A stretch of DNA of 64,000 nucleotides from the NCBI RefSeq assembly GCF_020618415.1, contig NZ_CP085344.1:620001-684000 (forward strand), read 5' to 3'. Below the pieces are notes generated by a model, which was not told where the DNA came from, searched no databases, and saw only the letters and a program-made list of their open reading frames with translations. Shown here one piece after another: positions 2,384 to 18,247 of this stretch. Source of the DNA: Cupriavidus sp. MP-37 (GTDB taxonomy: Bacteria > Pseudomonadota > Gammaproteobacteria > Burkholderiales > Burkholderiaceae). Made by a program: the position numbers and the translations under genes. The first letter of the stretch is position 1; every line of letters begins with the position of its first letter.

Positions 2384-2387
2384 GTTT

Positions 2388-3737
2388 TCAGACCCCTTGG
2401 ACGTTGTCGGCATTGGCGGGCAGCGCGTCGGCTTCACGGGCTGGCAGGCCGTTGAGAATCAGGTTGAGGACCACGGAAACCACGCAGGCGATGATCACGC
2501 TGCTGTGGACAAAGGGCTGCAGGAAGCCGGGCAGCTTCTCCAGCATGCCGGGCAGCATCACCGGCATCATTGCGCAGCCCAGCGTGATCGAGACGATGGA
2601 CAGATTGTTGGGGTTGCGCTCATAGTCCACGTCGCCCAGCGTCTTGATGCCGGCGGCCACGACCACGCCGAACATCACCATGGTGGCGCCGCCCAGCGCA
2701 GCGGCGGGAATCGATGCAAACAGCGCGCCGATCTTGGGCACCAGTGCCACCGCGCACAGCATCACGCCGCAGGTGGCGACCACCCAGCGGCTGCGCACGC
2801 CGGTGACGATCACCAGCCCCACGTTCTCCATGAACGCGATGTACGGAAACGCCGCGAACATGCCGCCGATGGCGCTGGCCAGGCTGTTGGCGCGCAGGCC
2901 GCGGGTGGCGTCGCGCTCGGTCAGCGGGCGCTTGACGATATCGCCGACGGCGACGAACAGGCCCATCGATTCCACCATCTGCACCACCATCACGATCACC
3001 ATGGTGGTGATGGCACCGATGTTGAAGGTGGGCATGCCGAACGCGAACGGCGTCACCATGGTGAACCAGGGCGCGCGCGTGACTTCGTCGAAGCTGCCCA
3101 TGCCCAGCATCCACGCCACCGCGCCGCCGACCAGCAGGCCGATCACCACCGACAGGTTGCGCACCAGTTCGCCGCCGTGCCGGTTGATCAGCAGGATCAG
3201 TGCCACCACGCCGAAGGCGACCAGGAAAAAGATGGGCGCGCCGAAATCCGGCGCGCCCCTTCCGCCTCCAAACCAGTGAAACGAAACCGGGAACAGGGAC
3301 AGGCCCACCGCGGTGATGGTGCAGCCGCTCACCACCGGCGGGAAGAAGCGCTTGAGCTTGCCGATCACGGGCGCCAGGAACATCGCGATCACGCCGGCGG
3401 CGATGATGGCGCCGCAGACGCCGTTGAAGCCCAGCGCCGGGTCGGTGCCGATGGCGATGACCGGGCCGACGGAGCTGAACGCCACGCCCTGCATCAGCGG
3501 CAGGCGCACGCCGAACTTCCAGAAGCCCACGGTCTGCAGCAGCGTGGCGATGCCCGAGGTGAACAGCGCGGTGCTGATCAGCATGGTGGTCTGGGCCGGC
3601 GTCATCTTGAGCGCCCCGGCCACGATCATCGGCACCGCGATGGCGCCGAGATAACTGACCAGCATGTGCTGGAAGCCGAGCGACGCCATGGCGCGGGCCG
3701 GCAGGATCTGGTCGACGGGATGAACCGCTGCTTGCAT
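2388..3737 (-). CDS. NCS2-family nucleobase permease (xanthine/uracil type)
   Basis: A 449-residue inner-membrane proton symporter of the nucleobase-ascorbate transporter family, with the usual 14 hydrophobic segments. The substrate-site glutamate of TM8 is E256 (VQMVESMG). The NCS2 signature reads E304-N-V-G, with Glu where xanthine and urate carriers usually have Gln; uracil carriers also carry Glu there, so the ligand may be pyrimidine-like. The ATG at 3737 has a GGAGACAAC ribosome site; longer starts have none. It is followed four bases later by the deaminase gene, which suggests that the imported base is the deaminase substrate. A second NCS2 gene lies at 11898. Confidence 0.9.
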   Translation of the reverse strand: MQAAVHPVDQILPARAMASLGFQHMLVSYLGAIAVPMIVAGALKMTPAQTTMLISTALFTSGIATLLQTVGFWKFGVRLPLMQGVAFSSVGPVIAIGTDPALGFNGVCGAIIAAGVIAMFLAPVIGKLKRFFPPVVSGCTITAVGLSLFPVSFHWFGGGRGAPDFGAPIFFLVAFGVVALILLINRHGGELVRNLSVVIGLLVGGAVAWMLGMGSFDEVTRAPWFTMVTPFAFGMPTFNIGAITTMVIVMVVQMVESMGLFVAVGDIVKRPLTERDATRGLRANSLASAIGGMFAAFPYIAFMENVGLVIVTGVRSRWVVATCGVMLCAVALVPKIGALFASIPAAALGGATMVMFGVVVAAGIKTLGDVDYERNPNNLSIVSITLGCAMMPVMLPGMLEKLPGFLQPFVHSSVIIACVVSVVLNLILNGLPAREADALPANADNVQGV

Positions 3738-3840
3738 GATGTTGTCTCCTGCCGCTGCTGGGGAAAGTGCGCCATGCCGGCGGCGGCTGGCCCGGTCTGT
3801 GTTTGCCGGGTTCGGTCCGTCACGGTGCCATGCGCGGCGC

Positions 3841-3888
3841 ATGACGCGCGCATGCCTTGCACAGTAGTGATGTACGGCATGCCGTCAT
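3841..3888. promoter_or_regulatory. Interrupted dyad upstream of the permease/deaminase operon
   Basis: Left half ATGACG(cgc)GCATGCC at 3841-3856 and right half GGCATGCCGTCAT at 3876-3888 are reverse complements except for the three extra bases in the left half. It lies about 105-150 bases upstream of the permease start. A regulator site is likely; the adjacent AraC-type regulator is a candidate, but this is inference. Confidence 0.45.
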
Positions 3889-4038
3889 AGCGTTATTGCG
3901 AAGGCTGTGGCACGGGGCCGCAAGCGGGCTGGCGAAATGCGCGCTGGGGGCATCAGGGGTTTCCCTTGGGTTGCGTAAGCGGGGTGGGGGTCATAGGATG
4001 GATGACGTATCTCGCGGCGAGCGCTTTCCGCGTGTTTG

Positions 4039-4174: not shown

Positions 4175-4243
4175 GCTGTTGGCAGTGGCATGCGTATCGG
4201 CAGGCAAGCCTTTGTGTTCTCCAACTTTCCGTCCCCATTACAT

Positions 4244-5251
4244 ATGCCACCCACCGCAGCCTGGTCCGCCGCAGCCCAGCGCCCGTCAGTCTCTCGCGGC
4301 GGCGACCTCGATCGCATCCAGTCGCTGTCCGGCCGCGTGTTCGGCCCGACGCGGCTGCGCGCGGCGGAGGATGATGCGGCGCTCGATGCGCGCATCGATA
4401 CCAGCACCATCGGCCGGCTGACGCTGGTGACCATCGCCTACAACCAGGCGGTGCAGATCGAGCCGCAGCCGAACAAGGACGAGTTCGTGATCCAGACCGT
4501 GCTGGCCGGCACGTGCCGCGTCGAGACGCCGCGCGGCGCGATGCTGATGCCGCCGGGAGCGACCTTCGTGTTCTCGCCGACGGTGCCGACCACGCTGTCG
4601 CTGGATCCGGGCTGCGAGCGCTTCAGCGTGGTGATCCGCCGCCAGCTGATCGAGGAAGCGTTCCGCCAGCAGTTCAGCTTCGAGCCGCCGGCGCCGATCG
4701 AATTCGACATGCAGCCGGTGGCCGACGATGGCCGTGCCGCTCGCTGGCAGGCGCTGGTGAGCTACCTGCGCGCGGAAACGCGCGTGCGGCGCGAAGGCAG
4801 CGGCGTGCCGGCCGTGGATGCCAGCATCGAACGCATCGTTTTGTCGACCCTGCTGCTCGACCGCTTCGCCGCGGACGGCAATATGCTGCCGCGGCGCTTC
4901 GAGGCGGTATTGCCCGACTACGTGCGCCAGGCCATTGCCTACCTGCGCGCCAACCTGGACCAGCCGCTGACGCTGGAGCAGATCGCCGCGCATTGCGGGG
5001 TGTCGGCGCGCACGCTGCAGCTGGGCTTTCGCAAGAGCAAGGACACCACGCCGATGGAGTACCTGCGGCTGCTGCGCCTGCATGGCGCGCGCGCCGACCT
5101 GCGGCGCGCGCCGCAAGAGAAGGGCATGGTCGGCACGATCGCGCTGCGGCACGGCTTTACCCACCTGAGCCTGTTCTCGCGCGAGTACCGGCGCGAATTC
5201 GGCGAGCTGCCGTCGCAGACCTTGCGCGCGGCCGCGTCGCAGCGGGACTGA
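4244..5251 (+). CDS. AraC-family transcriptional regulator
   Basis: A 335-residue regulator with an N-terminal AraC-type ligand-binding domain (about residues 50-190, cupin-like, including the PPGATFVFSP turn) and a C-terminal double helix-turn-helix from about residue 225 (LTLEQIAAHCGVSARTLQLGFRKSKDTTPMEYLR, then GFTHLSLFSREYRREFGELPSQ). This layout matches regulators of aromatic and amine catabolism. The start is uncertain: ATG 4244 and ATG 4190 are both possible and neither has a strong ribosome site; I chose 4244 because the extra 18 residues look like random sequence abutting the repeat. It is convergent with the COG0523 gene and reads away from the permease, whose operon it may control. 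Confidence 0.85.
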   Translation: MPPTAAWSAAAQRPSVSRGGDLDRIQSLSGRVFGPTRLRAAEDDAALDARIDTSTIGRLTLVTIAYNQAVQIEPQPNKDEFVIQTVLAGTCRVETPRGAMLMPPGATFVFSPTVPTTLSLDPGCERFSVVIRRQLIEEAFRQQFSFEPPAPIEFDMQPVADDGRAARWQALVSYLRAETRVRREGSGVPAVDASIERIVLSTLLLDRFAADGNMLPRRFEAVLPDYVRQAIAYLRANLDQPLTLEQIAAHCGVSARTLQLGFRKSKDTTPMEYLRLLRLHGARADLRRAPQEKGMVGTIALRHGFTHLSLFSREYRREFGELPSQTLRAAASQRD

Positions 5252-5285: not shown

Positions 5286-6389
5286 TCAGGCGGCCTGCGC
5301 CACCGGCAGGCACACCTTCAGCAGTGTCTGCAGCCGCAGCTTGTCGAGATGGCGGCCGATAAAGACGAACTTGCTTTGCGCCGGTTCCGCGCCCCACGCC
5401 TCGGCGGGATGGAAATCCATCAGCCGGTGCACCGCCTGCAGCACGTAGCGGCGCTCATCGCCCGCCACCGCGACGATCCCCTTCATGCGGAACACATCGT
5501 CGCCCTGCGCGGCCAGCAGCGCCTTCAGCCCATGCTCGAGGCGCTGGCGGTCGAACGGCTGGTCGAACACCAGCGAGACCGAGGTCACCGACGGATCGTG
5601 ACGGTGGCCGTGCGTGTCGTCATCGTGCGCGTGGTCGCAGTGCTCGTCGCAGATGTGGTCGTGGTCGTGGTGATCCGCCTGGTCGTGCGCATGGGCGTGG
5701 CCGAGGTGGTCATCGTGCGCATCCGCCTGTATCGATCCCGGCGTAAAGCCGCCGATGCCGAGGATCTTGCCCAGGTCCACCTGCGCGAAGTTGGAGCGCA
5801 GGATCTGCGCGCCCTCGTTCAGGCGGTGGATGCGGGCTTCCAGCCGGTCGAGCTGCGCGGCGTCGACCAGGTCGGTCTTGTTGAGGATCACGCGGTCGGC
5901 GGCGACGATCTGGTCGACCGCCTGGTTGTCGAAGCCGGTCAGCTGGGGATCGTCGAGATGGCTTTCGATATGCACCGCATCGACCAGCGTCAGGATGCCA
6001 TCGAGCGTGACCTGTCGCGCGACTTCGTTGTCCATGAAGAAGGTCGCGGCGACCGGCGTCGGGTCGGCCAAGCCGCTGGTTTCGACCAGGATATGGTCGA
6101 AGCGCTCGGGGCGTTCCAGCAGCTTCTGCAGGATGCGCACCAGGTCCGTGCGCACGTCGACCACGCAGCAGATGCAGCCGTTGGTCATCTGGTAGATCTC
6201 TTCATCCGACGTCATCACCAGGTCGGAGTCGACGTCGACTTCGCCGAACTCGTTCTCGATCACGGCGATGCGGTGGCCGTGCTTCTGCGTCAGGATGTGG
6301 TTGAGCAGCGTCGTCTTGCCCGAGCCGAGGAAGCCGGTGAGGATGGTGACCGGGATGGGCGGCTGTTGTGCGACGGCAGGTGCGTTCAT
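5286..6389 (-). CDS. COG0523 (CobW/P47K) GTPase with His-rich loop
   Basis: A 367-residue cytoplasmic G3E-family GTPase, a putative metal chaperone or insertase. Walker A is GFLGSGKTT at 19-27, the family metal-binding motif GCICC is at 71-75, and the guanine-specificity NKTD is at 170-173. A loop at about 224-265 contains some 17 histidines mixed with Asp, giving a strong zinc/cobalt/nickel binding segment. The C-terminal CobW_C domain follows (about 268-360). The ATG at 6389 has a GGAGACAAC site. It lies 65 bases after the UbiX-type gene on the same strand and could be read with the Mo-hydroxylase operon, perhaps supplying metal to the cluster's amidohydrolases; that link is inferred. Confidence 0.9.
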   Translation of the reverse strand: MNAPAVAQQPPIPVTILTGFLGSGKTTLLNHILTQKHGHRIAVIENEFGEVDVDSDLVMTSDEEIYQMTNGCICCVVDVRTDLVRILQKLLERPERFDHILVETSGLADPTPVAATFFMDNEVARQVTLDGILTLVDAVHIESHLDDPQLTGFDNQAVDQIVAADRVILNKTDLVDAAQLDRLEARIHRLNEGAQILRSNFAQVDLGKILGIGGFTPGSIQADAHDDHLGHAHAHDQADHHDHDHICDEHCDHAHDDDTHGHRHDPSVTSVSLVFDQPFDRQRLEHGLKALLAAQGDDVFRMKGIVAVAGDERRYVLQAVHRLMDFHPAEAWGAEPAQSKFVFIGRHLDKLRLQTLLKVCLPVAQAA

Positions 6390-6454
6390 GTTGTCTCCTG
6401 ATTTCTACCGGTTGGGTACTGCGTTCCTCGCTGCGGCGAGGCGAAATCTTCTGC

Positions 6455-7051
6455 TCAGGCGGTGGCGACGTTGGGGCGCAGGCCTTGCCAGCGTTCCACC
6501 AGACCGCCGTGCGGCACGTCGAACAGGTCCAGCACGCGCCCCACGGTGTGGTTGACGATGTCGTCCACCGACTGCGGATGTGCGTAGAACGCCGGCACCG
6601 GCGGCAGCACGATGGCGCCCATCTCCGTGACCGTGGTCATGTTGCGCAGGTGCACCAGGTGGAAGGGCGTCTCGCGCGCCAGCAGCACCAGCCGCCGCCG
6701 CTCCTTGAGCATCACGTCGGCGGCGCGGGTGACGAGGTTGTCGGCCAGCCCGGTGGCGATAGCGGCCAGCGTGCGCATGGAGCAGGGCGCCACCACCATG
6801 CCGTCGCAGCGGAACGAGCCGCTGGCGATGGTGGCGCCGATATCGCGCACGTTGTGCACCACGTCAGCCATGGCCTCGATCTGCGGGCGCTGCAGGCCCA
6901 GTTCATGGTGCGCGGTCAGCAGGCCGGACGGCGAGCAGACCAGATGCGTCTCCCAGCCGTCCAGTGCCGCCAGCGCCTGCAGCATGCGCACGCCGTACAC
7001 CGCGCCGCTGGCACCGGTGATGGCAACGACCAGGCGTTGCTTGCGGCTCAT
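6455..7051 (-). CDS. UbiX-type flavin prenyltransferase of the catabolic cluster
   Basis: A 198-residue protein that joins dimethylallyl phosphate to FMN to make prenylated FMN, the cofactor of UbiD decarboxylases. The FMN-binding start VVAITGASGAVYGVRML, the [22 protein letters not shown] segment and the LKERRRLVLLARETP motif are those of UbiX. ATG 7051 overlaps the stop of the molybdenum subunit gene (ATGA), so it belongs to that operon. A second, probably housekeeping, paralogue is at 44434 next to grxD; this copy most likely serves the UbiD-type enzyme encoded at 13526. Confidence 0.93.
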   Translation of the reverse strand: MSRKQRLVVAITGASGAVYGVRMLQALAALDGWETHLVCSPSGLLTAHHELGLQRPQIEAMADVVHNVRDIGATIASGSFRCDGMVVAPCSMRTLAAIATGLADNLVTRAADVMLKERRRLVLLARETPFHLVHLRNMTTVTEMGAIVLPPVPAFYAHPQSVDDIVNHTVGRVLDLFDVPHGGLVERWQGLRPNVATA

Positions 7052-9335
7052 GGCTGTTTGCCTTCCCGCGCGGCCTTCTCCGCCAGCGCCTGCAGCACCT
7101 GTTCCGGCTTGATCGGGTAGTGCCGGAAGCGCACGCCGATGGCATCGAACACCGCGTTGGCAATCGCCGGCCCGATCGCGACGATCGGGTCTTCGCCCAC
7201 GCCCTTGGCGCCGAACGGGCCGCCGGGATCCGGCGCGGCTTCGAGGATCACGGTGCGGATTTCGGGCATATCCATCGCCAGCGGCATCTTGTAGTCGACG
7301 AAGTTGGCGTTGAGCGAGCGGCCGGTGCGCATGTCGATCTGGTAGTCCTCGTACAGCGTGTGGCCGATGCCCTGCTGGATGCCGCCTTCGATCTGGCCCG
7401 CGGCCGCCACCGGGTGGATCACCTTGCCGACGTCGTGTACCGGCACCACCTGGCGCACGGTGATGAAGCCGGTCTCGGTGTCGACCGCCACCTCGACAAA
7501 ATGCGCCGCGAACGAATACGACTTGGTCGGATGATAGGTGGCGGTGCCGACCAGCTGCGCGGCGGGAATGCCCTTGCGCGGCATCACCGCCTCGCGCACC
7601 GTCAGCGTGGGCCCGTCGCGGTCGCGCACGGCGATCACGCCGGCCGACAGTGTCAGGTCCTCGGGCTTGCATTCCATCAGCTTTGCGGCGCGCTCGAGCA
7701 ACTGGCGCTTGATCTCGCCCGCCGCCATCTGCGCCGCCTTGCCGACCATGTAGGTGGTGTGGCTGGCAAAGGCGCCGATGTCCCACGGCACGACGTCGGT
7801 GTCGCCGTGCACCACCGACACCGCTTCGAACGGCAACGTCAGTTCTTCCGCCACGATCTGGGCGAGCGCGGTATGCGCCCCGGTACCCAGCCCGGCCGCG
7901 CCGGTCAGCAGTACCACGGTGCCGTCCTCGTTCATCTTGATGATGGCGTTGCCCTGTTCCTTGATGCCGGGATAGGCGCTGCTGCCGTGCATCTCGCAGC
8001 CCAGGCCCCAGCCGGTGCGCACCGGGCCGCTGGTGTCGCGCGGGCGGCGGCGCAGCGCGGGCCAGTCGAGCAGGGCCATGCCTTTCTCGATGCAGGCTTC
8101 CAGGCCGTGCCCGATCAGCGGATGGTTCGAGGGCGCGATATCGCCTTCGCGCACTGCGTTCTTCAGCTTCAGTGCGGCGGGGTCCATGCCCAGGTGGGCG
8201 GCGGCCTCGTCCATCTGCACGTCGAGCGCGTAGTAGGTCTGCACCACGCCGTAGCCGCGGAACGCGCCGGCGATCGGGCTGTTGGTGTAGACACAGCGCC
8301 CTTCGAGCAGCACGTTGTCGCAGCGGTACAGCGACACCATGGCGGCGGTGCCGACGTTGGTCACGCCAGGGCCGTGCGAGCCGTAGGCGCCGGAATTGAA
8401 CACCACCTTGGCCTGGCGCGCGGTAATGGTGCCGTCGTTGCGGAAGCCCTGCTTCAGCCAGATCTTCGCCGGATGGCGCGTGCGGCCGCCGAGGAAGGTT
8501 TCCTCGCGGGTGTATTCCATGCGCACCGGCCGGCGCGTCTCGCGCGCCAGCAGCGCGCACAGGAACTCATGCTGGAACAGGTCCTGCTTGGCGCCGAAGC
8601 CGCCGCCCATGTGGTCGACCAGCACGCGCACCTTGTGCAGCGGCAGCCCCAGCACCTCGGCCATGATGCCGCGCACCATGAAGGCGGTCTGGGTCGAGAT
8701 CCACACCGTCAGGTTGCCGTTGCCGTCCCAGCTGCAGGTCAGCACGTTGGGCTCCATGTAGGCCGGCGTGGGACGGCCGCCCTCGTAGACGCCTTCGAGG
8801 ATGAAGTCGGCCTCGGCAAAGCCGGCTTCCACATCGCCGCGCCGGACGATCACCGGCGGCAGCACCAGGTTGCCGCCGGGCTCGCGCTCATGGATGCGCG
8901 GGGCGTCGGAGCGCTCGGCATCTTCCGTGGTGAAGACCGCGGGCAGCGTCTCGTATTCGACCTCGATCAGCTCGAGCGCGCGCTCGGCAATCTCTTCGCT
9001 GACCGCTGCCACCGCGGCCACGCCTTCGCCCCAGTAGCGCACCTTGTAGTCCAGGATGTACTGGTCGCAGGTCAACGACGCGGAGCGCGGGTGCGGCGAG
9101 CCGGCGTGCAGCACGCGCGGCACGTTCTCGTGCGTCAGCACCGCCTTGACCCCGGGCAGCGCCAGCGCGCGCGAGGTGTCGATGCGGCGGATGCGGGCGT
9201 GGGCGACGTTGCTGCGCTTGATCTTGCCGTACAGCAGGCCGGCGAAGGGCATGTCGGCAACGTACTTTGCGTTGCCTGTGACCTTGTCGAGCAGGTCGGT
9301 GCGCTTGACGCTGTGTCCGATCACGGCGTGGGTCA

Positions 9336-9336
<1 letters not shown>
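7048..9336 (-). CDS. Molybdenum hydroxylase large (Mo-cofactor) subunit, xanthine dehydrogenase family
   Basis: A 762-residue catalytic subunit of a three-component molybdenum hydroxylase that inserts water-derived oxygen into an aromatic or N-heteroaromatic ring. Domains: Ald_Xan_dh_C N-terminal (about 18-125), then the Mo-cofactor-binding domain with GGGFGAKQD, AGAFRGYG and the active-site Glu in GAKGVGED near residue 713. The AFRGYG loop replaces the cysteine-bearing loop of CO dehydrogenase, so this is not a CO dehydrogenase. Two ATGs overlap the stop of the FeS gene; I chose 9336 because GAGGAGG is four bases upstream, and only one base from the ATG at 9339. The length fits 4-hydroxybenzoyl-CoA reductase or furoyl-CoA dehydrogenase alpha chains; the substrate is unknown. 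Confidence 0.92.
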
Positions 9337-9835
<499 letters not shown>

Positions 9836-9848
<13 letters not shown>

Positions 9849-10720
9849 GATGCTCCGCGCAAGGCGGCCTCCAGGGCTTGTTCGAGGGCGCGGCGGGTCA
9901 GCACGCTGACCATCTGCCGCCGGTAGGCTTCGCTGGCGCGCACGTCGCTGATCGGACGGGCTTCGTCCATGGCGGCGTGCGCGGCCTGCAGGATCAGGGC
10001 CTCGGTCAGGCGCTGGCCGCGCAGCAGGTGCTCGGCGCGCGCCGCGCGCACGGGCGTGGGGCCGACCGCCGCCAGCACGATGCCGGCGTCGGCGCAATGG
10101 CCGCCCTGCACCGTCAGCGATACCGCTACGCCGACGGTGGCGAGTTCCATCTGCACGCGGCGCCCATGCTTGAGATAGACCTTGCCGGTGCCGGGCCGCG
10201 GCGCCGGCACGGTGATGCGGGTGACGATCTCGTCCGGCGCGATGGCGGTCTTGCCGACGCCGGTGACAAAGTCCTCGACGCGCAGTTCGCGCGAGCCGGA
10301 CATGCCGTACAGGTGCACCGAGGCGCCGTCGGCCACCAGCGGCGCAATCGAATCCGCCGACGGCGACGCCCGGCAGACATTGCCGACCACGGTGGCGCGA
10401 TGGCGCACCTGGATCGAGGCGAAGTCGGTCACCGCCTTGGCCAGGCCGGCGTAGTGGCGCTGCACGAAGCTGGAGGTCTCGACCGCGCGCGTGGTCACCA
10501 GTGCGCCGATGCGCAGGCCGTTGACCGGATCGAACGTCAGCACGTCCATGCCCGGGATCTTCTTGATGTTGATGACCTGCTCGGGCTTGCGCACGGACTC
10601 CTTGATCTGCACCAGCAGATCGGTGCCGCCGGCGAGCACGCTGGCCTTGCCGCCGCACCGGTGCAGCATGGCCGAGGCTTCCGCCAGCGTCGCCGGTTCG
10701 AAATACTCAAACGCTCTCAT
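9836..10720 (-). CDS. Molybdenum hydroxylase medium (FAD) subunit
   Basis: A 294-residue subunit of the CoxM/XDH-B type. It binds FAD through VLAGGTDLL near residues 28-36 and the TVVGNVCRASPSAD loop near 110, and has the CO_deh_flav_C domain at the end. It lacks the insertion that carries a [4Fe-4S] cluster in HcrB of 4-hydroxybenzoyl-CoA reductase, so that enzyme is unlikely. ATG 10720 follows a strong AGGAGGAG site and is the first gene of the operon FAD-FeS-Mo-UbiX, all with overlapping ends. The LysR gene is divergent and the shared upstream region holds a candidate operator at 10837. Confidence 0.93.
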
Positions 10721-10836
10721 TGCTCCTCCTGGTCTGTGCCGTCGGCGGCGGCTGCCGGTGCTGTTGCCGGCCTGTGGGGCGCGCGCCGTTGAATTCATCA
10801 TGGGCGCAGGGCCTTCATCGGTAAAGGCCTGCAAAC

Positions 10837-10866
10837 GGATTAATTGATCGTGTTACCCTCTGAATC
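10837..10866. promoter_or_regulatory. Candidate LysR operator, site 2
   Basis: A 30-base element, GGATT-N19-TGAATC with central AATTGATCGTGT, located between the divergent Mo-hydroxylase operon and the LysR gene. It shares 22 of 30 positions and identical spacing with the element at 13462-13491 upstream of the second NCS2 permease. The position, 63-92 bases before the regulator's GTG, is typical of LysR-family autoregulatory sites. Confidence 0.55.
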
Positions 10867-10928
10867 AGACGCGCCAGCCAGACCACGGCAACAGCAAGCG
10901 CGCATCCGCATCTCCGGAGGTAGACCAC

Positions 10929-11852
10929 GTGCCCAACCTGAGCAACATGAACGTGTCGCTGCGCCAGTTGCGCGCGTTCATCGCCGTGGCGCAGGAGCGC
11001 CACTTCACCCGCGCGGCCGAAAAGCTGGACCTGTCGCAGTCGTCGGTCAGCGCGCTGATCCATGAGCTGGAAGCCAACCTCGGCCTGAAACTGTTCGACC
11101 GCCACACGCGCCAGCTGCACATCACCCAGGCCGGTGCCGAGCTGCTGCCGCTGGTGAAGAAGGCGGTCGCCGATATCGACAGCGTGATCGAGAACTCCAG
11201 CGAACTGCGCACGCTCGGGCGCGGGCGCGTGTCGATCGCGGCGTCGTCGATCCAGGCGGCGTTGATGCTGCCGCGCGTGATGCGCGAGTTCTGCGTCAGC
11301 CATCCGGGCGTGAAGGTGGAGCTGCACGATGTGTCCGAGCACGAAGTGACCAAGATGGTCAGCTCGGGCGAGGTCGACTTCGGCATCGGCACCATCCCCG
11401 AGGGCCAGCCCGACCTGAGCGCGCACCGGCTGATGGACGATGCCTTCGTCATCGTGATGCCCGCGCACCATCCATTGCGCCGGCGCAAGACGCTGCGCTG
11501 GGAGGACGTGGCGGGCCTGCCGGTGATCGGGCCGCACAAGGGCAACCCGATCCGCGACTGCCTGGACACCGCGCTGGCCGCGCGCGGCATCACGCTGCAG
11601 CGGGTGCACGAGGTGTTCCTGCCGCTGACCATGGTCGGCATGGTCGACGCCGGCCTGGGCATCGCCGTGATGAGCGCGGCGGTCACGCGGCTGACCACCG
11701 CGCTCGGGCTGGCGACGGTGATGCCGACCGATCCGGTGATCCACCGCGAGATCTCGCTGCTGGTGCACGCGGACCGGTCGCTGTCGCCGCCGGCCCAGGC
11801 CTTCCGCGATTTGCTGATGCGCTATCGCGCCAGGCTGGCCGAATCCGCCTGA
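10929..11852 (+). CDS. LysR-family regulator of the Mo-hydroxylase/decarboxylase region
   Basis: A 307-residue LysR-type regulator: winged helix-turn-helix at about 8-67 (LRQLRAFIAVAQERHFTRAAEKLDLSQSSVSALIHELE in outline) and a periplasmic-binding-like effector domain from about 98. The start is GTG 10929 with GGAGG at 10916-10920. It is divergent from the Mo-hydroxylase operon and convergent with the permease gene; matching 30-bp sites upstream of both suggest that it controls both. Its effector is presumably the substrate or an intermediate of the pathway. Confidence 0.92.
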   Translation: MPNLSNMNVSLRQLRAFIAVAQERHFTRAAEKLDLSQSSVSALIHELEANLGLKLFDRHTRQLHITQAGAELLPLVKKAVADIDSVIENSSELRTLGRGRVSIAASSIQAALMLPRVMREFCVSHPGVKVELHDVSEHEVTKMVSSGEVDFGIGTIPEGQPDLSAHRLMDDAFVIVMPAHHPLRRRKTLRWEDVAGLPVIGPHKGNPIRDCLDTALAARGITLQRVHEVFLPLTMVGMVDAGLGIAVMSAAVTRLTTALGLATVMPTDPVIHREISLLVHADRSLSPPAQAFRDLLMRYRARLAESA

Positions 11853-11897
11853 CCGCGGTTGGCTGCGTCTGACCGTGGCTGACTTCGGCCGGCTACG

Positions 11898-13289
11898 TCA
11901 TGCCGGTTCCTTGGCCAGGCCGTGGGGCTGGGGGGCCGGCGAACGCGCGTTGAACAGCAGGTTCAGCAGCACCGCGGTCAGCGTGCCGAGCAGGATGCCG
12001 TTCTGGCAGAACTTGGCCAGCAGCTCCGGCATCTGCGCGAAGAACTTGTCGGACACCAGCGGGATCATGCCCAGCGCCACGCTGACGGCGACGATGTAGG
12101 CGTTCTTCTTGTTCTCGACAAAGTCCACATGGCCGAGGATGCGCACGCCGGTGGCCGCGACCATGCCGAACATCACCAGCGCCGCGCCGCCCAGCACGTA
12201 CTGCGGGATCGAGGCCGCGAAGAAGGCCAGCTTGGGCAGGCAGCCCAGCACGATCAGGATGCCGCCGGCGGTGGCGCAGACCCAGCGGCTGCGCACGCCG
12301 GTGACCTGCACCAGTCCCACGTTCTGCGCGTACGAGGTGTAGGTGAAGGTATTGAACACCGCGCCCACCAGCGCGCCGACGCCGTCCGCACGCAGGCCGC
12401 GCGCGAGGTCTTCGGGGCCGACGGGGCGGTCGACGATTTCGCCCAGCGCCAGGAACTGGCCCACGCCCTCGATCATGATCACGATCATCACCACGCACAG
12501 CGTGACCGCGGTCATGGCGTCGAAGGTGGGCCAGCCGAAGTGGAAGGGCGTGATGAACTCGACCCAGTGCGCGCTGTGCAGGCCGTCGAAGTTGACCTTG
12601 CCCAGCGCCAGTGCGATCACGAAGCCCACCCCAATCCCGATCAGCACCGCCACGTTGCACAGGAAGCCGCGCGCAAAGGCGACCAGCGCCAGCACCGTGC
12701 ACAGCACCGCGGTGGCGATGGCGATGTTCACCGGCAGGCCGAAATTGGGGTTGGGCACCGGGCCGGCCGCGGTGTTGAGGGTGGGGTTGCCGCCCGCGGC
12801 CCAGTTGATCCCGACCCGCATCAGCGAGACCCCGATCACCAGCACCACGGTGCCGGTCACCACCGGCGGGAACCAGCGCACCATCTTGCCGACATAAGGC
12901 GCGGCAAAGTAGGTGAAGATGCCCGCCACCATCACCGCGCCGAACACCGCTGGCAGCCCCAGCGACGGATTGGAGCCGGTGGCGATAATCGGCGCGATCG
13001 CGGTAAAGGTGACGCCCATCATCACCGGCAGCCGGATGCCGACCTTCCAGATGCCGATGCTCTGGATCATCGTCACCAGGCCGCAGCAGAACAGGTCGGC
13101 GGCGATCAGGAAAGCCACCTGGTCCTTGGGCAGCTTGAGCGCGCCGCCGATGATCATCGGCACGGCAATGGCGCCGGCGTACATCACCAGCACATGCTGC
13201 AGGCCCAGGGCGAGCAGGCGGGGCGGGGGCAGGACCTCGTCGACGGGATGCACTGGGGCATGCCCTTGCGTAGGCAGGGTGGGGTTCAT
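11898..13289 (-). CDS. NCS2-family permease, xanthine/urate-like
   Basis: A 463-residue proton symporter of the nucleobase-ascorbate family. The TM8 glutamate is E274 (MIEGVGQF) and the family signature reads Q322-N-V-G, as in xanthine and uric acid carriers, unlike the ENVG of the paralogue at 2388. ATG 13289 follows AAGGAG. The gene follows the decarboxylase gene on the same strand with a 236-base gap that holds its own candidate operator, so it may be transcribed independently. Its placement between the LysR gene and the UbiD gene makes it the best candidate importer of the pathway substrate, which would then be a bicyclic or purine-like anion; this is inference. Confidence 0.9.
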   Translation of the reverse strand: MNPTLPTQGHAPVHPVDEVLPPPRLLALGLQHVLVMYAGAIAVPMIIGGALKLPKDQVAFLIAADLFCCGLVTMIQSIGIWKVGIRLPVMMGVTFTAIAPIIATGSNPSLGLPAVFGAVMVAGIFTYFAAPYVGKMVRWFPPVVTGTVVLVIGVSLMRVGINWAAGGNPTLNTAAGPVPNPNFGLPVNIAIATAVLCTVLALVAFARGFLCNVAVLIGIGVGFVIALALGKVNFDGLHSAHWVEFITPFHFGWPTFDAMTAVTLCVVMIVIMIEGVGQFLALGEIVDRPVGPEDLARGLRADGVGALVGAVFNTFTYTSYAQNVGLVQVTGVRSRWVCATAGGILIVLGCLPKLAFFAASIPQYVLGGAALVMFGMVAATGVRILGHVDFVENKKNAYIVAVSVALGMIPLVSDKFFAQMPELLAKFCQNGILLGTLTAVLLNLLFNARSPAPQPHGLAKEPA

Positions 13290-13456
13290 GCTGTCTCCTT
13301 TGGTCGGTATCACGCCGGTTGCGCATTGCGCTAACGTGTCGCCAAGGTCGCCGGCGTTTCCTCTGCGGGATGGTCGTGCCATCCTCTCGTGCGAAGCCCG
13401 CGCCAGTCCTGTCTGTCAGTCCAGCATGACAGCGGCGCAGGGAAGGTACAACGTTC

Positions 13457-13497
13457 ACGGCGGATTTATCGATCGGGTGAAACGATGAATCCGCCGT
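13457..13497. promoter_or_regulatory. 15-bp inverted repeat and candidate LysR operator, site 1
   Basis: Arms ACGGCGGATTTATCG (13457-13471) and CGATGAATCCGCCGT (13483-13497) are reverse complements with one mismatch, separated by 11 bases. The inner 13462-13491 part matches the site at 10837-10866. It lies about 175-200 bases upstream of the permease start and just after the UbiD stop. No T-run follows on the minus strand, so a regulator site is more likely than a terminator for the UbiD gene. Confidence 0.55.
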
Positions 13498-13525
13498 TTT
13501 CAGCGGGTTATCCCTGAGCCTCGCC

Positions 13526-14968
13526 TCACGGCATGTGGGATGGCCCACGCTCCAGCCGTGCCAGCAACGCGGCCGCGCGCGCCATCGCGGCAGGATCGAT
13601 GCGTGCGCGGATGCCATCGAAATTCGGCCCGCGCGTCGCATCCAGTCCCATGCGTGACGTGGTGCCGACACCGGATGCCGACGGATCGAGCGCGCTGCCG
13701 GGCAGGCCGTCCACCACCACCACATCCAGGTGCGGCTGCAGGTGCGTGGCCATGGCCCACAGCACTTCCTCGTCGCGCGTGATGTCGACATCCTCGTCCA
13801 CCGCCACCACCGTTTTCAGGTAGGGGTCCCAGCCGAGCAGGCCCAGCATCACCTGGCGCGCCTCGCCCGGGCGGCTCTGGCGCAGCGCCACGTAGGCGTG
13901 GAAATGCGTGCCGGAGCTGGGGTAGTGCACCGCGGTGACGCCCGGGAAGCGCTCCCTCAGCTTCTCGACCATCTCGGATTCGCGCGGGATGCGGCCCAGG
14001 TTCAGGTGCTCGGCCGAGTTGCCGCCGACCACGTCGACCAGCCACGCGTCCGTGCGCCGCATCACGCTCTGCACCCGCAGCAGGTTATTGGTCGAGCGGT
14101 CCGACGAGTAGCCGGTGAACTCGCCGAACGGGCCTTCGTCGACGCGCGCCTCGGCATCGATCACGCCTTCGAGCACGATCTCGGCATGCGCCGGCACCAG
14201 GATGCCGTGGCGCGGCGTGCGTACCACTTCCAGCGGCGCGCCGAACAGGCCGCCTGCGACATGGCGCTCGTCCACGCCGAACGGCAGCCGCGCCGCGCCG
14301 GCCAGCATGAACAGCGGATGCGCGCCGATCACCATCGCCACCGGCAGCGGCCGGCCCAGTTCTGCGGCGCGCTGCTGCATGCGCCACAGGTGGCCGCGCG
14401 AATGCAGGCTGGTGGCGATCTCGGTGGGCGAATGCAGCATCGAGCGGTGGTAGCTGGCGTTGCCGATGCCGCTGTCGGGGTCTTCCGCGATCAGGATCGC
14501 GTTGGTGATGTAGGGGCCGCGGTCGGTGGCGAAATGCTTGATCGCCGGGAGCGTGCACAGGTCGATGTGTTGCGTCTCGACCTGGCCGGTGACGGCGCCG
14601 CTGTCCAGCACGCGCGGTGCCACCATGCGGCGGCTGCGGGCCTGGTACTCGGCATGGATGCCGGCGGGCGGCACGCCGCCGAGCATGCGCCCGACGCGCT
14701 CGCGCGAGGCAAAGAGATTGGTGGCCAGCGCTGTGCCCAGCCCTTCGACGTGGTCGAACAGCAAGGCCGGATGGCGGCCTTGCGCCGCCAGCGCCCACAC
14801 CAGCGCGGTCGGGTCCTGGTCGGCGCCGACCGGCTCGCGGACATGCAGCACGTCTTCGGGAAAGGCCTCGCGGTAGGCCGCCAGGAACTGGTGGAAATCC
14901 TGCGAGGTATCGTGGAAAGGCTGGTGCGCCGCTGCCGTCGAGGCGAAGGGCGCTGAAGGCGAGTTCAT
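13526..14968 (-). CDS. UbiD-family prFMN-dependent (hetero)aryl decarboxylase
   Basis: A 480-residue decarboxylase that removes or adds CO2 on an aromatic, heteroaromatic or acrylic acid using prenylated FMN. The catalytic triad of the family is visible as R175 (ASYHRSM), E278 and E283 (DEGPFGEFTGY), and cofactor/metal ligands are N170, H193 and probably E234. The conserved VDEDVDITRDEEVLWA segment is near residue 420. ATG 14968 has an AGGAG site. It sits 102 bases after the first amidohydrolase gene. Substrate specificity cannot be read; 2,5-furandicarboxylate, pyrrole-2-carboxylate and hydroxybenzoate decarboxylases are relatives. Confidence 0.92.
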   Translation of the reverse strand: MNSPSAPFASTAAAHQPFHDTSQDFHQFLAAYREAFPEDVLHVREPVGADQDPTALVWALAAQGRHPALLFDHVEGLGTALATNLFASRERVGRMLGGVPPAGIHAEYQARSRRMVAPRVLDSGAVTGQVETQHIDLCTLPAIKHFATDRGPYITNAILIAEDPDSGIGNASYHRSMLHSPTEIATSLHSRGHLWRMQQRAAELGRPLPVAMVIGAHPLFMLAGAARLPFGVDERHVAGGLFGAPLEVVRTPRHGILVPAHAEIVLEGVIDAEARVDEGPFGEFTGYSSDRSTNNLLRVQSVMRRTDAWLVDVVGGNSAEHLNLGRIPRESEMVEKLRERFPGVTAVHYPSSGTHFHAYVALRQSRPGEARQVMLGLLGWDPYLKTVVAVDEDVDITRDEEVLWAMATHLQPHLDVVVVDGLPGSALDPSASGVGTTSRMGLDATRGPNFDGIRARIDPAAMARAAALLARLERGPSHMP

Positions 14969-15070
14969 GATCGGCTCCTGTGGTCAGGGTTGGCCAGGGC
15001 GAAGGCTGCCCCGGCGGCCGCGCCTGCGCGCGGGCCGCCGTGCCGTGCCTGCCTGCCGAACTGCTACCGG

Positions 15071-15985
15071 CTAGCGCGTGCTGGCGTAGGTATCCTTCAG
15101 CCGCGCCAGCGCTTCTTCCTGTGTCCTGGGCGGCGCCGTGGTCTCGATGCCGACCAGCCGGGCGATGTTGTTGCCCATGTAGTCCTCGAGCCCGTCCTCG
15201 TCCAGGTCCATGCCCTGCGGCGCGGGGCCGCACAGCATTTCCAGCTCGCGCAGCCACATGCCGGGCTCGTTGGGCGGCGTGTCGGTGCCGAACACGATCT
15301 TGTCGCGCGGCAGCTGGCGCGCGAACTCGACGATGCGCGACTGGAAGCACCAGCCCGATTCGCAGTACACGTTGGGCGTGTCCATCGCCATCCAGAACGC
15401 CTCGAACGAGTAGTTGCCGCCGGTCTGGATGCCGAAATGCCCGATGATGAAATTGACCATCGGGAATTCGCGGATGATCGGGTAGAACATCGTCGGGATG
15501 GTGTACGGGCCGTCGCCGGTGTGGATCAGCACCACCACGTTGTACTTGGCGCAGACCTTCATCGCCGGGCGCAGCCAGTCGAGCGCGCGGTCGGGCCGGT
15601 AGCCGTGCATGTTGGCATGCAGCTTCAGCATCTTGAAGCCGTACTCCTTGACGTGGAATTCCAGCTCCAGCGCGCCTTCTTCCGGGCCCCAGCGCGGGTT
15701 GAAGGTGAAGTTGCCGATAAAGCGGTCAGGGTACTTCTGGCACAGCTCGGCGATATACGCCATGTAGTCGCGGATGCCTTCGCGGCCGCGGCGGTTGCCG
15801 TCGCGGTAGCCGGTGTTGCCCGGTGGCGGCTGGATAAAGCCCATGTCGATGCGGCGCGGCTTGCCGTTGATCATGTAGGGGCCGTCCATCATCTTGAGCA
15901 TGCGCTCGCCGTTGAAGGGCTCGCCGGTGTGGCGCCAGGCTTCGTCGACCAGGTTGGTCGGGTGCAGGTGGGTGTCGATAATCAT
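15071..15985 (-). CDS. Amidohydrolase_2 (ACMSD-like) enzyme with intact metal site
   Basis: A 304-residue TIM-barrel protein of the ACMSD/gamma-resorcylate decarboxylase group, which performs metal-dependent non-oxidative decarboxylation or hydrolysis of aromatic and heteroaromatic acids. All ligands are visible: HxH as H6 and H8 (DTHLHP), H155 (LIHTGDGPY), H183 (IGHFG) and D235 (FGTDTPP). It is 44 bases downstream of its paralogue at 16030 and leads into the UbiD gene, so they form one operon. Isoorotate decarboxylase and 5-carboxyvanillate decarboxylase belong to the same group, so the reaction could be a decarboxylation; ring hydrolysis is the alternative. Confidence 0.88.
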   Translation of the reverse strand: MIIDTHLHPTNLVDEAWRHTGEPFNGERMLKMMDGPYMINGKPRRIDMGFIQPPPGNTGYRDGNRRGREGIRDYMAYIAELCQKYPDRFIGNFTFNPRWGPEEGALELEFHVKEYGFKMLKLHANMHGYRPDRALDWLRPAMKVCAKYNVVVLIHTGDGPYTIPTMFYPIIREFPMVNFIIGHFGIQTGGNYSFEAFWMAMDTPNVYCESGWCFQSRIVEFARQLPRDKIVFGTDTPPNEPGMWLRELEMLCGPAPQGMDLDEDGLEDYMGNNIARLVGIETTAPPRTQEEALARLKDTYASTR

Positions 15986-16029
15986 GTCGGGTGCTCCGGA
16001 GTCCGTTGTCGTTGGCGCGGGTGCGGGGC

Positions 16030-16932
16030 TTAGGCGGCCAGGCGCGCTTTCGCTTCTTCCAGCGTGCGCGGCACCGGCGTCGGCTCCAGGCCGATCATCC
16101 GGGCGACGTTGTTGCCGAGGTAGTCCTCGAGCGTGTCTTCATCCAGGTTCAGGCCCTGGGGCGGCTCGAAGCACAGCACTTCCAGCAGGCGCAGCCACAT
16201 GCCGGGCTCGTTGGGCGGGGTGTCGGAACCGAACAGGATCTTGTGCTTGGGCAGCACCTTGGCGAACTCGACGATGCGCGACTGCAGGCACCAGCCCGAT
16301 TCGCAGTAGACGTTGGGCATGTCCATCGCCATCTGGAACGGCTCGAAGCAGTAGACGCCGCCGGTCTGCACGCCGAAGTGGGCCATGATGAAGTTCACGG
16401 TCGGGAACTCCTTCATCATCGGCACCCATTCGGTCGGGATGCTGTAGGGACCGTCCCCGGTATGCAGCTTGACCAGCACGCCCAGCTCGGCGCATTTCTG
16501 CAGCGCCGGGCGCAGCCAGTCGAGCGCGCGGTCCGGGCGGTAGGCGTGCATGTTGGCCTGGAACTGGACCATCTTGAAGCCCAGCTTCTTCACGTAGTGC
16601 TCGATCGCGTTGACGCCGTTCTGCACGCCGCAGCGCGGGTTGTAGACGAAGCAGCCGATAAAGCGGTCGGGGTACTTCTTCACCATCTCGACCGTGTACG
16701 CCATGTACGCGTCGATCGATTCGCTGCCCGACTTCACGCCATCGGTGTAGGTGTAGATGGTGTTGCCTTGCGGCGGCTGGATAAAGGCCTTGTCGATGCG
16801 GCGCGGCTTGCCGTTGATGGTGAATGGGCCGTCCATCATCTGGATCAGGCGCTCGCCGGTGAACGGGTCGCCATCGTGGCGCCAGGCCAGGTCCACCAGG
16901 TTCGTCGGATAACAGCTGGTGTCGATGATCAT
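16030..16932 (-). CDS. Amidohydrolase_2 paralogue that lacks the HxH metal motif
   Basis: A 300-residue paralogue, highly similar to the product at 15071 along its whole length (shared TNLVD, NGKPRRID, YRPDRALDWLRPA, HTGDGPY, FGxDTPPNEPGMW). The N-terminal DTHLHP is replaced by DTSCYP, so both histidines of HxH are gone, while H157, H185 and D237 remain. Codons read unambiguously on the minus strand. It may bind metal differently, act on another substrate, or form a non-catalytic half of a heteromer with the neighbour. ATG 16932 follows AGGGG; it is the first gene of the operon leading to UbiD. Confidence 0.85.
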   Translation of the reverse strand: MIIDTSCYPTNLVDLAWRHDGDPFTGERLIQMMDGPFTINGKPRRIDKAFIQPPQGNTIYTYTDGVKSGSESIDAYMAYTVEMVKKYPDRFIGCFVYNPRCGVQNGVNAIEHYVKKLGFKMVQFQANMHAYRPDRALDWLRPALQKCAELGVLVKLHTGDGPYSIPTEWVPMMKEFPTVNFIMAHFGVQTGGVYCFEPFQMAMDMPNVYCESGWCLQSRIVEFAKVLPKHKILFGSDTPPNEPGMWLRLLEVLCFEPPQGLNLDEDTLEDYLGNNVARMIGLEPTPVPRTLEEAKARLAA

Positions 16933-17347
16933 GGGAGATCCCCTAACAATGACTAGGTTGGACACGCATGCGGCGGGCGCGCGCGAACGACGCCGCGGGG
17001 CCGGCCTTGCATGCTGCGATCGGGAGTCTTTGTCAGGGGAGCGTCTGGACCACTGCGCCACCGACGAAACACTCCGTCAGTGAGCAATCTCCAGTTGAAC
17101 GTCGCGGCATTGCGCCGCTGCTGTCCAATCGACCGCTTCTACCCACGCGCTCTTTATACATAGCGCTTCGGCACGGGTCAAGCGCATCATGTGTTGCGCC
17201 GCACGAACAGTGGGGCCGGCCTGCATTCCAAAGCACGGTGCGAATCCGCTACATTGCGCAGACCGTGCCGGCAGGCCCTGCCGCGCGGGGCATCGACAAT
17301 ACGGGCCGCTTGCTTGGAACGGGGTTCATCACAGGGAAGGGGAAAAC
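16933..17347. other. Intergenic region between divergent operons
   Basis: About 415 bases between the divergent amidohydrolase operon and the GH114-like gene. It should contain both promoters. I see no repeat copy, no convincing small gene, and no match to the 30-bp LysR candidate element apart from an isolated GCGATCGGG near 17018, which I do not regard as significant. Confidence 0.6.
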
Positions 17348-18247
17348 ATGCACGGCAACGATCCGATGAAGGCGAGGGCCATGCTGTCCGTAGCGCTGGT
17401 TGCGCTGGTTGCGCTGACCACGCTGGGCGGCTGCGGCGGCGATGGCGGACAGACCGGGATGGTGTCACCGACGGCCGCTTCCGCGACGCGGTACATCAAC
17501 GAAACTACCACCAGTGCCACCACCCGCTGGGCCCCGGCGCTCACCGACACCTGGCAGATTCAGCTGACCGGCAGGCTCAACACCAGCTATGCCGTGACCG
17601 CCTATGACTTCGACCTGTTCGATACGCCGCAGGCCACCATCGATGCGCTCAAGGCGCAGGGCCGGCGCGTGATCTGCTACTTCTCGGCGGGCAGTTCCGA
17701 GGACTGGCGTCCCGACTTCAACCAGTTCACCGAGGCCGACCAGGGCGCCGCGCTGTCGGGCTGGGCCGGTGAGCGCTGGCTGGATACGCGCTCGGCCAAC
17801 GTGCGCCGCATCATGCAGGCGCGCATGGACCTGGCGGTCAGCAAGGGCTGCGATGCGGTCGATCCCGACAATGTCGATGGCTATACCAACAGCAGCGGCC
17901 TGCCGTTGACGGCCGAGACCCAGCTCGACTACAACCGCTTCCTGGCCGCCGAGGCGCATGCGCGCGGGCTGGCAGTCGGTTTGAAGAACGATGTGGCGCA
18001 GGTGGCCGAGCTGGCGGCCAGCTTTGACTTCGCCATCAATGAACAGTGCTTCCAGTACCGCGAGTGCGGCGCCTATACCGCGTTCACGGGGCAGGGCAAG
18101 CCGGTGTTCCAGATCGAATACGCCACCAAGTACCGCGACGCCGCCACGCGCGCCGGACTGTGCGCCAAGGCGCAGGCAGCCAACCTGCGCACCCTGGTGC
18201 TGCCGAGGACGCTGAACGGGTCGTTCCGCTACGCCTGCGACGCCTGA
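17348..18247 (+). CDS. Lipoprotein of the GH114 / endo-alpha-1,4-polygalactosaminidase-like family
   Basis: A 299-residue predicted lipoprotein: signal sequence with lipobox LGGC (Cys near residue 29), then a single TIM-barrel domain. Segments WQIQLTG, YDFDLFDT, VICYFSAGSSEDWRPD, KGCDAVDPDNVDGY and AVGLKND are characteristic of the DUF297/TM1410 group to which alpha-1,4-polygalactosaminidases (GH114) belong. The likely role is cleavage of a galactosamine-containing exopolysaccharide at the cell surface. ATG 17348 follows GAAGGGGAAAAC. The gene ends inside the convergent metallopeptidase gene (19-base overlap). Confidence 0.8.
   Translation: MHGNDPMKARAMLSVALVALVALTTLGGCGGDGGQTGMVSPTAASATRYINETTTSATTRWAPALTDTWQIQLTGRLNTSYAVTAYDFDLFDTPQATIDALKAQGRRVICYFSAGSSEDWRPDFNQFTEADQGAALSGWAGERWLDTRSANVRRIMQARMDLAVSKGCDAVDPDNVDGYTNSSGLPLTAETQLDYNRFLAAEAHARGLAVGLKNDVAQVAELAASFDFAINEQCFQYRECGAYTAFTGQGKPVFQIEYATKYRDAATRAGLCAKAQAANLRTLVLPRTLNGSFRYACDA

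Follow-up and report, generated by a model that had tools for sequence, protein, structure and literature searches.

The window, a stretch of 64,000 nucleotides (nt) from Cupriavidus sp. MP-37 (contig NZ_CP085344.1, positions 620,001 to 684,000), carries a gene cluster that has about an even chance of converting pterins into xanthine. The cluster encodes two ACMSD-like amidohydrolases (AH1 and AH2), a UbiD-family decarboxylase, the flavin prenyltransferase UbiX, a molybdenum (Mo) hydroxylase of three subunits, two NCS2 permeases (NCS2a and NCS2b), a CobW/COG0523 GTPase and a COG0402 deaminase (AHa). These genes are conserved as one cluster, the N-terminal HxH motif for metal binding has disappeared from AH2 in every related locus, and the AH2 operon is preceded by a leader homologous to the xanthine riboswitch that retains all of its ligand contacts. 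From this gene set we infer every substrate and the order of the steps.

Conservation of the gene set

A scan of named genomes with AH2 as the query yielded 175 confirmed loci, the best 80 of which were taken; together with four plasmid loci and two Burkholderiales loci they form a table of 86 loci, in which identity thresholds were set gene by gene. The six additions were picked to broaden the range, so the sample is uneven, and the 80 scan loci are rich in Cupriavidus, Paraburkholderia and Pseudomonas. Locus flanks were 10 kb, whereas AHa sits 14.5 kb from AH2 in the window, and partners are missing from some loci partly for this reason.

AH2 and AH1 are neighbours in all 86 loci, and in 85 the next gene downstream, in the same orientation, is UbiD, the exception (L065) being a contig that ends within AH1. 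UbiX is present in 80 loci and CobW in 70. An NCS2 or BMP-type transporter also occurs in 80, a BMP-type ATP-binding cassette (ABC) transporter standing in place of the permease in five. The deaminase slot is occupied in 59 loci, by an AHa-type enzyme in 55 and a CodA-like enzyme in four. A Mo hydroxylase is found in 71 loci, as a trio of xanthine dehydrogenase (XDH) type in 19 and as a second, distantly related Mo protein in 52; that one slot is filled by two such distant relatives is counted in favour of the pterin-to-xanthine reading.

The most frequent gene order is AH2-AH1-UbiD-UbiX-CobW-NCS2a-AHa, and NCS2a beside AHa forms a conserved neighbourhood. In 15 of the 19 Cupriavidus-type loci, UbiD is followed instead by NCS2b and LysR, with the Mo trio as well in 14 of the 15 (the contig of the remaining one, L010, is cut); the Massilia-type loci are ordered differently again. 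Two genomes (G399 and G553) have the Mo trio after UbiD on the same strand, UbiX not being found in either locus, and Sinorhizobium, Ensifer and Herminiimonas hold the same trio nearby, with Mo subunits 73%–81% identical. Since the trio lies with AH2-AH1-UbiD across genera, the Mo half and the UbiD/amidohydrolase half belong together. A preliminary description of this DNA had regarded the two halves as a single catabolic system for a nucleobase-like N-heteroaromatic compound, comprising uptake, ring hydroxylation, decarboxylation by a prenylated flavin mononucleotide (prFMN) enzyme and amidohydrolase chemistry. The recurrence of the gene set across the 86 loci bears out the joint conservation, and the system so described remains the probable one.

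The deaminase

AHa scores 794 bits against NF009059 (PRK12393; cut-off 543), a model named just "amidohydrolase family protein". Among solved structures, 2paj stands closest to it (E 1.6e-137, 52% identity over nearly the full length), presumably the enzyme that Hall et al. 2010 described as isoxanthopterin deaminase; identity to 3hpa, presumably an 8-oxoguanine deaminase, is 39%. In a tree of 52 sequences, the Massilia-type AHa clusters with 2paj as well. Judged by these similarities, AHa is probably an isoxanthopterin/pterin deaminase. Hall et al. 2010 are cited for isoxanthopterin deaminase in a passage of PMC11121863, and enzymes of this type deaminate both isoxanthopterin and pterin-6-carboxylate according to a passage of PMC5270733; the passages concerned assign 2paj no pathway or gene cluster.

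The CodA-like deaminase fills the AHa slot in four alphaproteobacterial loci, from Ochrobactrum, Sinorhizobium, Paracoccus and Ensifer. It is 431 residues long and lies beside the BMP-type ABC transporter (L091 26990–28285; L093 4849–6144). The Sinorhizobium enzyme is possibly related to the pterin deaminase Arad3529. Arad3529 and the PDA of Variovorax F1, known from folate degradation, are likewise cyclic-amidine deaminases acting on pterins, and the passages of PMC9513972 on them describe no downstream genes.

The double specificity of the isoxanthopterin-deaminase type gives weight to a different entry point. Pterin-6-carboxylate, a folate breakdown product, might be imported and deaminated by AHa, with the Mo hydroxylase oxidising C7, UbiD removing the C6 carboxylate and AH1/AH2 opening the ring later. 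The solved UbiD relative AnInD, a decarboxylase of an N-heteroaromatic acid, would suit such a step, and a passage of PMC9513972 puts lumazine-6-carboxylic acid forward as a possible intermediate in folate breakdown. This route is nevertheless unlikely: it needs an extra, unassigned step to arrive at xanthine, to which the riboswitch points, and the tightest unit of the cluster, AH2-AH1-UbiD (85 of 86 loci), fits a UbiD acting after AH1/AH2 at least equally well.

A leader related to the xanthine riboswitch

When the regions upstream of AH2 from the window and 11 Cupriavidus-type loci were aligned, approximately 100 nt proved strongly conserved. A covariance model of our own, built from 23 distinct leaders, detects the element in 33 of the 86 loci, no more than 600 nt upstream of AH2, including all 19 of Cupriavidus type; most of these 33 contributed to the model, whose lowest accepted score is 45.4 bits and whose next match scores 21.5. 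The same model finds a second copy of the variant (50.2 bits) in the Herminiimonas locus L031 (1748–1830), ahead of CobW, a BMP-type transporter and AHa. Against the Rfam model of the xanthine riboswitch (RF03054, also called NMT1), the Sinorhizobium leader of L091 reaches 43.4 bits and is the sole scored leader to pass the cut-off of 36; L115, L114, L018 and L028 score 34.4, 32.6, 26.0 and 24.3 bits, respectively. A search of the whole 6.1-Mb genome of the window, in which scores were computed for 150 of 943 first-look candidates, listed no RF03054 match at E ≤ 10 other than the leader (E 0.006), and no match at E ≤ 0.01 occurs in any of 14 control genomes. Among 250 sampled Burkholderiales genomes, our own model at E ≤ 0.001 with stricter filters matches just the four that carry AH1; three of these four fed the model, and the informative part is thus the 0 of 246 elsewhere. 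RF03054 itself is found in 14 of the 250 at E ≤ 0.01, over the cut-off in eight.

The nucleotides of the xanthine riboswitch that contact the ligand are A6, A9, G10, C11, G35, A39, U40 and U41 (in a passage of PMC8266621). With the crystal numbering mapped by us, none of the 23 leaders departs from these eight, each of which touches or sandwiches the ligand. Three leaders have T in place of G7, the nucleotide that holds a metal ion through its phosphate, and 15 have G in place of A16. At position 38, where the family consensus is C, 22 leaders have G and one has A, so that the 13–38 pair is lost in 18 leaders and a U–G wobble in five. Stems P1 and P2 are kept, with 93.8% of cells paired. Six pairs are changed on both sides, a number equalled in 4 of 500 shuffles, and the covariation score of P1/P2 was equalled in none of 500; the shuffles ignore relatedness. 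The leader thus shares the P1/P2 layout and all eight ligand-contacting nucleotides with RF03054 and differs from it at position 38 and in the amidohydrolase-UbiD genes that it precedes. It appears to be a diverged NMT1 riboswitch, with a ligand that may itself have changed.

Xanthine and urate are both ligands of NMT1 RNAs, which work as OFF switches and are found ahead of PRK12393 deaminase genes, among others (passages of PMC7373994); a term search of the main text of that paper returned neither "UbiD" nor "decarboxylase". As C8 of the ligand is the only solvent-accessible position in the xanthine riboswitch (a passage of PMC8266621), an 8-carboxylate could fit the aptamer. One Cupriavidus genome (G255) holds two xanthine riboswitches over the cut-off, on contigs 141 and 3, plus the variant ahead of AH2, and a different ligand for the variant would fit this coexistence. 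By eye, a sigma-70-like promoter (TTGACC, 17 nt, TATAAA) stands just ahead of the window leader; a consensus scan found none.

The leader might, alternatively, be no riboswitch for the AH2 operon or sense something unrelated, the RF03054 match being convergence or a relic. The window copy scores 25.4 of the 36 bits of the gathering cut-off (E 0.0017 in 401 bases), and its single-strand fold is unexceptional (z −1.4). The element is absent from 53 of the 86 loci, all Pseudomonas ones included (two leaderless loci, L045 and L057, have less than 200 nt of upstream sequence), and the L009 leader gives no RF03054 match at E ≤ 1. An Rfam search of seven loci at the gathering threshold returned no match, the leaders surfacing in E-value mode, and some match at E ≤ 10 is present in 12 of the 14 control genomes, none of them over the cut-off. 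This explanation is highly improbable all the same, given that the one match listed in 6.1 Mb falls exactly ahead of AH2; the Sinorhizobium score, the invariant contacts, the covariation of P1 and P2 and the Herminiimonas copy ahead of CobW-transporter-AHa also speak against it.

The amidohydrolase pair

AH1 and AH2 had been described beforehand as two ACMSD-like amidohydrolases. Both do belong to PF04909, but they are not equivalent. AH1, which in the window also has H155, H183 and D235, keeps its metal motif (HLH) in all 86 loci, whereas in AH2 the N-terminal HxH is replaced by S-C-Y in all 86 (DTSCYPT in the window). The pair forms a separate branch, plasmid matches being either at least 80% or less than 60% identical. 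The AlphaFold model of AH1 (predicted local distance difference test 78.3, predicted template modelling score 0.84) is closest in fold to ACMSD, LigW, resorcylate and isoorotate decarboxylases, LigJ, PDC lactonase and uncharacterised amidohydrolases; for AH1 and AH2 alike, the Foldseek and VIA rows do not separate hydrolase from decarboxylase. From the ACMSD-type Amidohydro_2 decarboxylases (ACMSD, LigW, gamma-resorcylate and isoorotate decarboxylases), AH1/AH2 differ in being a pair of one intact and one degenerate paralogue. We propose that AH1 is the catalytic subunit of a tetraoxopteridine cycloisomerase and AH2 a non-catalytic or substrate-shaping subunit, the two presumably forming a heteromer.

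Molybdenum hydroxylase, UbiD and permeases

The Mo subunit scores 666 of 780 and 313 of 849.5 bits against the NCBIfam XDH equivalogs, the FeS subunit 184.6 of 217 and the flavin adenine dinucleotide (FAD) subunit 213.5 of 310, all below the cut-offs listed. The genome carries a separate XDH over the cut-off (1369 bits), and a canonical XDH was accordingly rejected as the identity of the trio, which is proposed to be a pteridine C6/C7 hydroxylase.

UbiD scores 194.8 bits against PF01977 (cut-off 23.3) and 271.6 against TIGR00148 (cut-off 244.85). Its best solved relatives are 6h6x/6h6v and AnInD (7p9q); the former we take to be HmfF of furan catabolism, the latter an indole-3-carboxylate decarboxylase, acting on an N-heteroaromatic acid. 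An arginine and a Glu-x4-Glu motif have catalytic roles in UbiD enzymes. The arginine of NASYHRSM aligns with that of 6h6x and 7p9q, and EGPFGEF aligns with EGPFGEY of 6h6x and EGPFAEV of 7p9q. UbiD is proposed to be a xanthine-8-carboxylate decarboxylase.

The cluster shares a three-subunit Mo hydroxylase, UbiD and UbiX with the hmf clusters for furoate and hydroxymethylfurfural. It differs from them in having a deaminase, an amidohydrolase pair and purine permeases and in having neither coenzyme A (CoA) ligase nor thioesterase: no Pfam family of a CoA ligase or a thioesterase/hydrolase was found among the cluster genes scanned, as the preliminary description had stated. An hmf-like furan route was rejected on these grounds.

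The same enzyme classes could serve a ring of another kind, and the preliminary model in fact envisaged an imported carboxylate, such as a carboxypyrimidine or a pyridine or pyrrole acid, that is hydroxylated, decarboxylated and hydrolysed. Isoorotate decarboxylases among the closest AH1 folds and 6h6x (presumably HmfF) as the nearest solved UbiD agree with this model, which is very unlikely, since it accounts for neither the xanthine riboswitch nor the conserved COG0402 deaminase. The 52% identity of AHa to 2paj and the xanthine-riboswitch leader make a route from pteridine to xanthine likelier than one from any of these acids. The substrate had been called nucleobase-like and beyond reading from the sequence; the first part stands, and the second gives way to a probable pteridine.

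Proposed pathway

In the proposed route, a pteridine would be imported by an NCS2 permease, and isoxanthopterin (or a related 2-aminopteridine) would be deaminated by AHa to 7-oxolumazine, which the FAD/FeS/Mo hydroxylase would oxidise at C6 to 2,4,6,7-tetraoxopteridine. AH1 and AH2 would then hydrolyse, with assistance from the metal, one amide of the oxidised (dioxo)pyrazine ring to give an oxalylamino-aminouracil. The uracil amine could then condense with the oxalyl amide, releasing water and forming an imidazole acid, so that the net reaction would be an isomerisation to xanthine-8-carboxylate. UbiD, with prFMN from UbiX, would convert this acid to xanthine and CO2. Xanthine would pass into the ordinary purine catabolism of the same genome, where it should be usable because XDH and two OHCU decarboxylases are encoded. 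CobW, probably a metal chaperone, would supply the metal, and in this genus and some others the riboswitch ahead of AH2 would turn translation off when the end product is plentiful. Two elements of the preliminary model do not carry over: the carboxylate would be made within the pathway (as xanthine-8-carboxylate) rather than imported, and ring opening would precede decarboxylation rather than follow it.

The complete scheme—pteridine-to-purine ring contraction by AH1 and the pseudoenzyme AH2, a UbiD acting on a purine acid, and a riboswitch that senses xanthine-8-carboxylate or tetraoxopteridine and not xanthine—is a tentative proposal, rather unlikely to hold in every part. The ring contraction corresponds to EC 5.5.1.3, which we take to be tetrahydroxypteridine cycloisomerase (the tetraoxypteridine isomerase of Alcaligenes faecalis); the steps flanking it (deamination, hydroxylation and decarboxylation) match the genes one by one. 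Work of the 1960s on Alcaligenes faecalis reportedly led from isoxanthopterin through xanthine-8-carboxylate to xanthine, and McNutt reportedly worked on isoxanthopterin. By elimination and gene context, AH1/AH2 are candidates for this activity. Among the 228 orphan activities that were reviewed and listed in 2007, EC 5.5.1.3 is ranked difficult (a passage of PMC1940265). It had no known sequence in that survey, whereas two ACMSD-like paralogues, one without the metal motif, are proposed for it here. Tetrahydroxypteridine and xanthine-8-carboxylate appear at the same mass in a metabolomics table (a passage of PMC5941619).

Several observations weigh against the conversion of pterins to xanthine, in addition to those on the leader given above. 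The closest folds of AH1 are mostly decarboxylases. Among the 70 loci of at least 20 kb, no Mo hydroxylase was found within the flank in nine and no deaminase in 16; UbiX was not found in the L114 and L115 loci. Of the 250 Burkholderiales genomes, 16 encode an AHa-like protein (E ≤ 1e-100) and four AH1, all four being among the 16, so that AHa occurs without AH1 in 12; the count is weak because a single genus supplies two of the four AH1 genomes and a single family two. One AHa without AH1/AH2, in L103, lies behind a canonical NMT1 riboswitch (2831–2899, over the Rfam cut-off) in a different operon, the intervening genes resembling, by eye, those for dioxygenases and an ABC transporter. A canonical xanthine riboswitch over the cut-off occurs also in L107 (14282–14348), where an AHa-like deaminase is likewise found without AH1/AH2. 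AHa by itself is therefore no proof of pterins, and its relatives perhaps act elsewhere on guanine-like bases.

A purine substrate would accommodate these relatives. An 8-substituted guanine-type compound would be deaminated by AHa on the way to xanthine or urate, with UbiD taking an 8-carboxylate and AH1/AH2 serving a side branch. Canonical xanthine riboswitches and genes of purine oxidation do accompany PRK12393 deaminases (passages of PMC7373994; L103), NCS2b exceeds the cut-off of the pbuX xanthine permease model, and the riboswitch class senses oxidised purines. Such a route would, however, leave unexplained why turning a guanine-like base into xanthine should require a Mo hydroxylase and two amidohydrolases, and AHa is nearer to 2paj than to 3hpa (presumably the 8-oxoguanine deaminase); a purine substrate is thus quite unlikely.

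Each step of the proposed pterin pathway can be assayed with few proteins, which makes the claims directly testable. If they hold, the orphan activity EC 5.5.1.3 would gain its genes, and in bacteria that live in soil or with plants (Cupriavidus, Burkholderia relatives, Pseudomonas and Sinorhizobium) purine metabolism would be linked to folate and pterin waste. The substrate range of UbiD enzymes would extend to a purine acid, the xanthine riboswitch would have a named natural variant, and the pair of active and pseudo-subunit would be available for mechanistic study. The enzyme families are known; their combination, the degenerate partner, the association of the riboswitch with amidohydrolase and UbiD genes, and the pathway assignment appear to be new. 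Among the matches listed from the open-access literature, none ties these genes to pterins or xanthine-8-carboxylate; subscription papers lay mostly outside this scope, and a prior description is possible.

Gene layout and neighbouring features

The window belongs to a two-contig Cupriavidus genome of 6.1 Mb, and the cluster proteins share 93%–100% identity with their counterparts in C. necator SHC 2-3 (L001) and C. alkaliphilus ASC-732 (L003). The cluster is transcribed from the minus strand in three blocks: AH2, AH1, UbiD and NCS2b (16932 down to 11898); FAD, FeS, Mo, UbiX and CobW (10720 down to 5286), from which LysR diverges; and NCS2a with AHa (3842 down to 971), from which an AraC gene diverges. 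All genes named in the preliminary description (FAD, FeS, Mo, UbiX, LysR, NCS2, UbiD and two Amidohydro_2) were recovered with Pfam and NCBIfam models; the overlaps that it reported, FAD/FeS, FeS/Mo and Mo/UbiX, and the divergent LysR were found as well. Its extent for the cluster (5286..16932) encloses these genes correctly, but it leaves NCS2a, AHa and the riboswitch-like leader outside, and CobW within it went unmentioned.

Table 1. Features of the cluster in the window, with their positions, strands and supporting models.
Feature	Position	Strand	Model support
Riboswitch-like leader of the AH2 operon (apparently a diverged NMT1/xanthine aptamer)	17077..17149 (own covariance model 17070–17150)	-	RF03054 25.4 bits
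AH2, Amidohydro_2 (ACMSD-like) paralogue without HxH	16030..16932	-	PF04909 120.4 bits, cut-off 26.4
AH1, Amidohydro_2 (ACMSD-like), HxH intact	15071..15985	-	PF04909 164.1 bits, cut-off 26.4
UbiD-family prFMN decarboxylase	13526..14968	-	PF01977/PF20696/PF20695; TIGR00148
NCS2b purine permease, pbuX-type; start probably 13289	11898..13382	-	PF00860; TIGR03173 538 bits, cut-off 414
LysR regulator, divergent from Mo trio	10929..11852	+	PF03466/PF00126
FAD subunit, Mo hydroxylase	9836..10720	-	PF00941/PF03450
2Fe-2S subunit, Mo hydroxylase	9336..9848	-	PF01799/PF00111
Mo-cofactor subunit, Mo hydroxylase	7048..9339	-	PF02738/PF20256/PF01315
UbiX flavin prenyltransferase	6455..7051	-	PF02441; PRK06029 288.8 bits, cut-off 188
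CobW/COG0523 GTPase	5286..6389	-	PF02492/PF07683; under every NCBIfam equivalog cut-off listed
AraC-family regulator, divergent from NCS2a-AHa	4190..5251	+	PF14525/PF12833
NCS2a permease; start probably 3737	2388..3842	-	PF00860
AHa, COG0402 deaminase (PRK12393 family); start probably 2383	971..2437	-	PF01979; NF009059

Comparison of the LysR-FAD intergenic region with the AH2 upstream region for a shared regulator site gave best 18-mers identical at 13 of 18 positions, taken as chance without a control. A long inverted repeat (4038–4164; 35-nt arms, 89% complementary, 57 nt apart) separates NCS2a from the AraC gene, and matches to microRNA families that are located on this repeat (4035–4166) were taken as chance.

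Further genes accompany the cluster in the related loci: one for an M20-family hydrolase close to AHa in 11 loci of Pseudomonas type, one of the XdhC family after AHa in L060, and one for an Asp/Glu racemase-like protein (arylmalonate decarboxylase family) in the vicinity of the cluster in 13 loci; coordinates for side genes are L060 18282–20749, L045 8414–9628 and L021 15284–15988. In the window, on the plus strand and thus opposite to the AH2 leader, a GH114 glycoside hydrolase gene (17189–18247) begins a short way upstream of this leader, and such a gene stands beside the cluster in 6 of the 80 scan loci, all of them from Cupriavidus.

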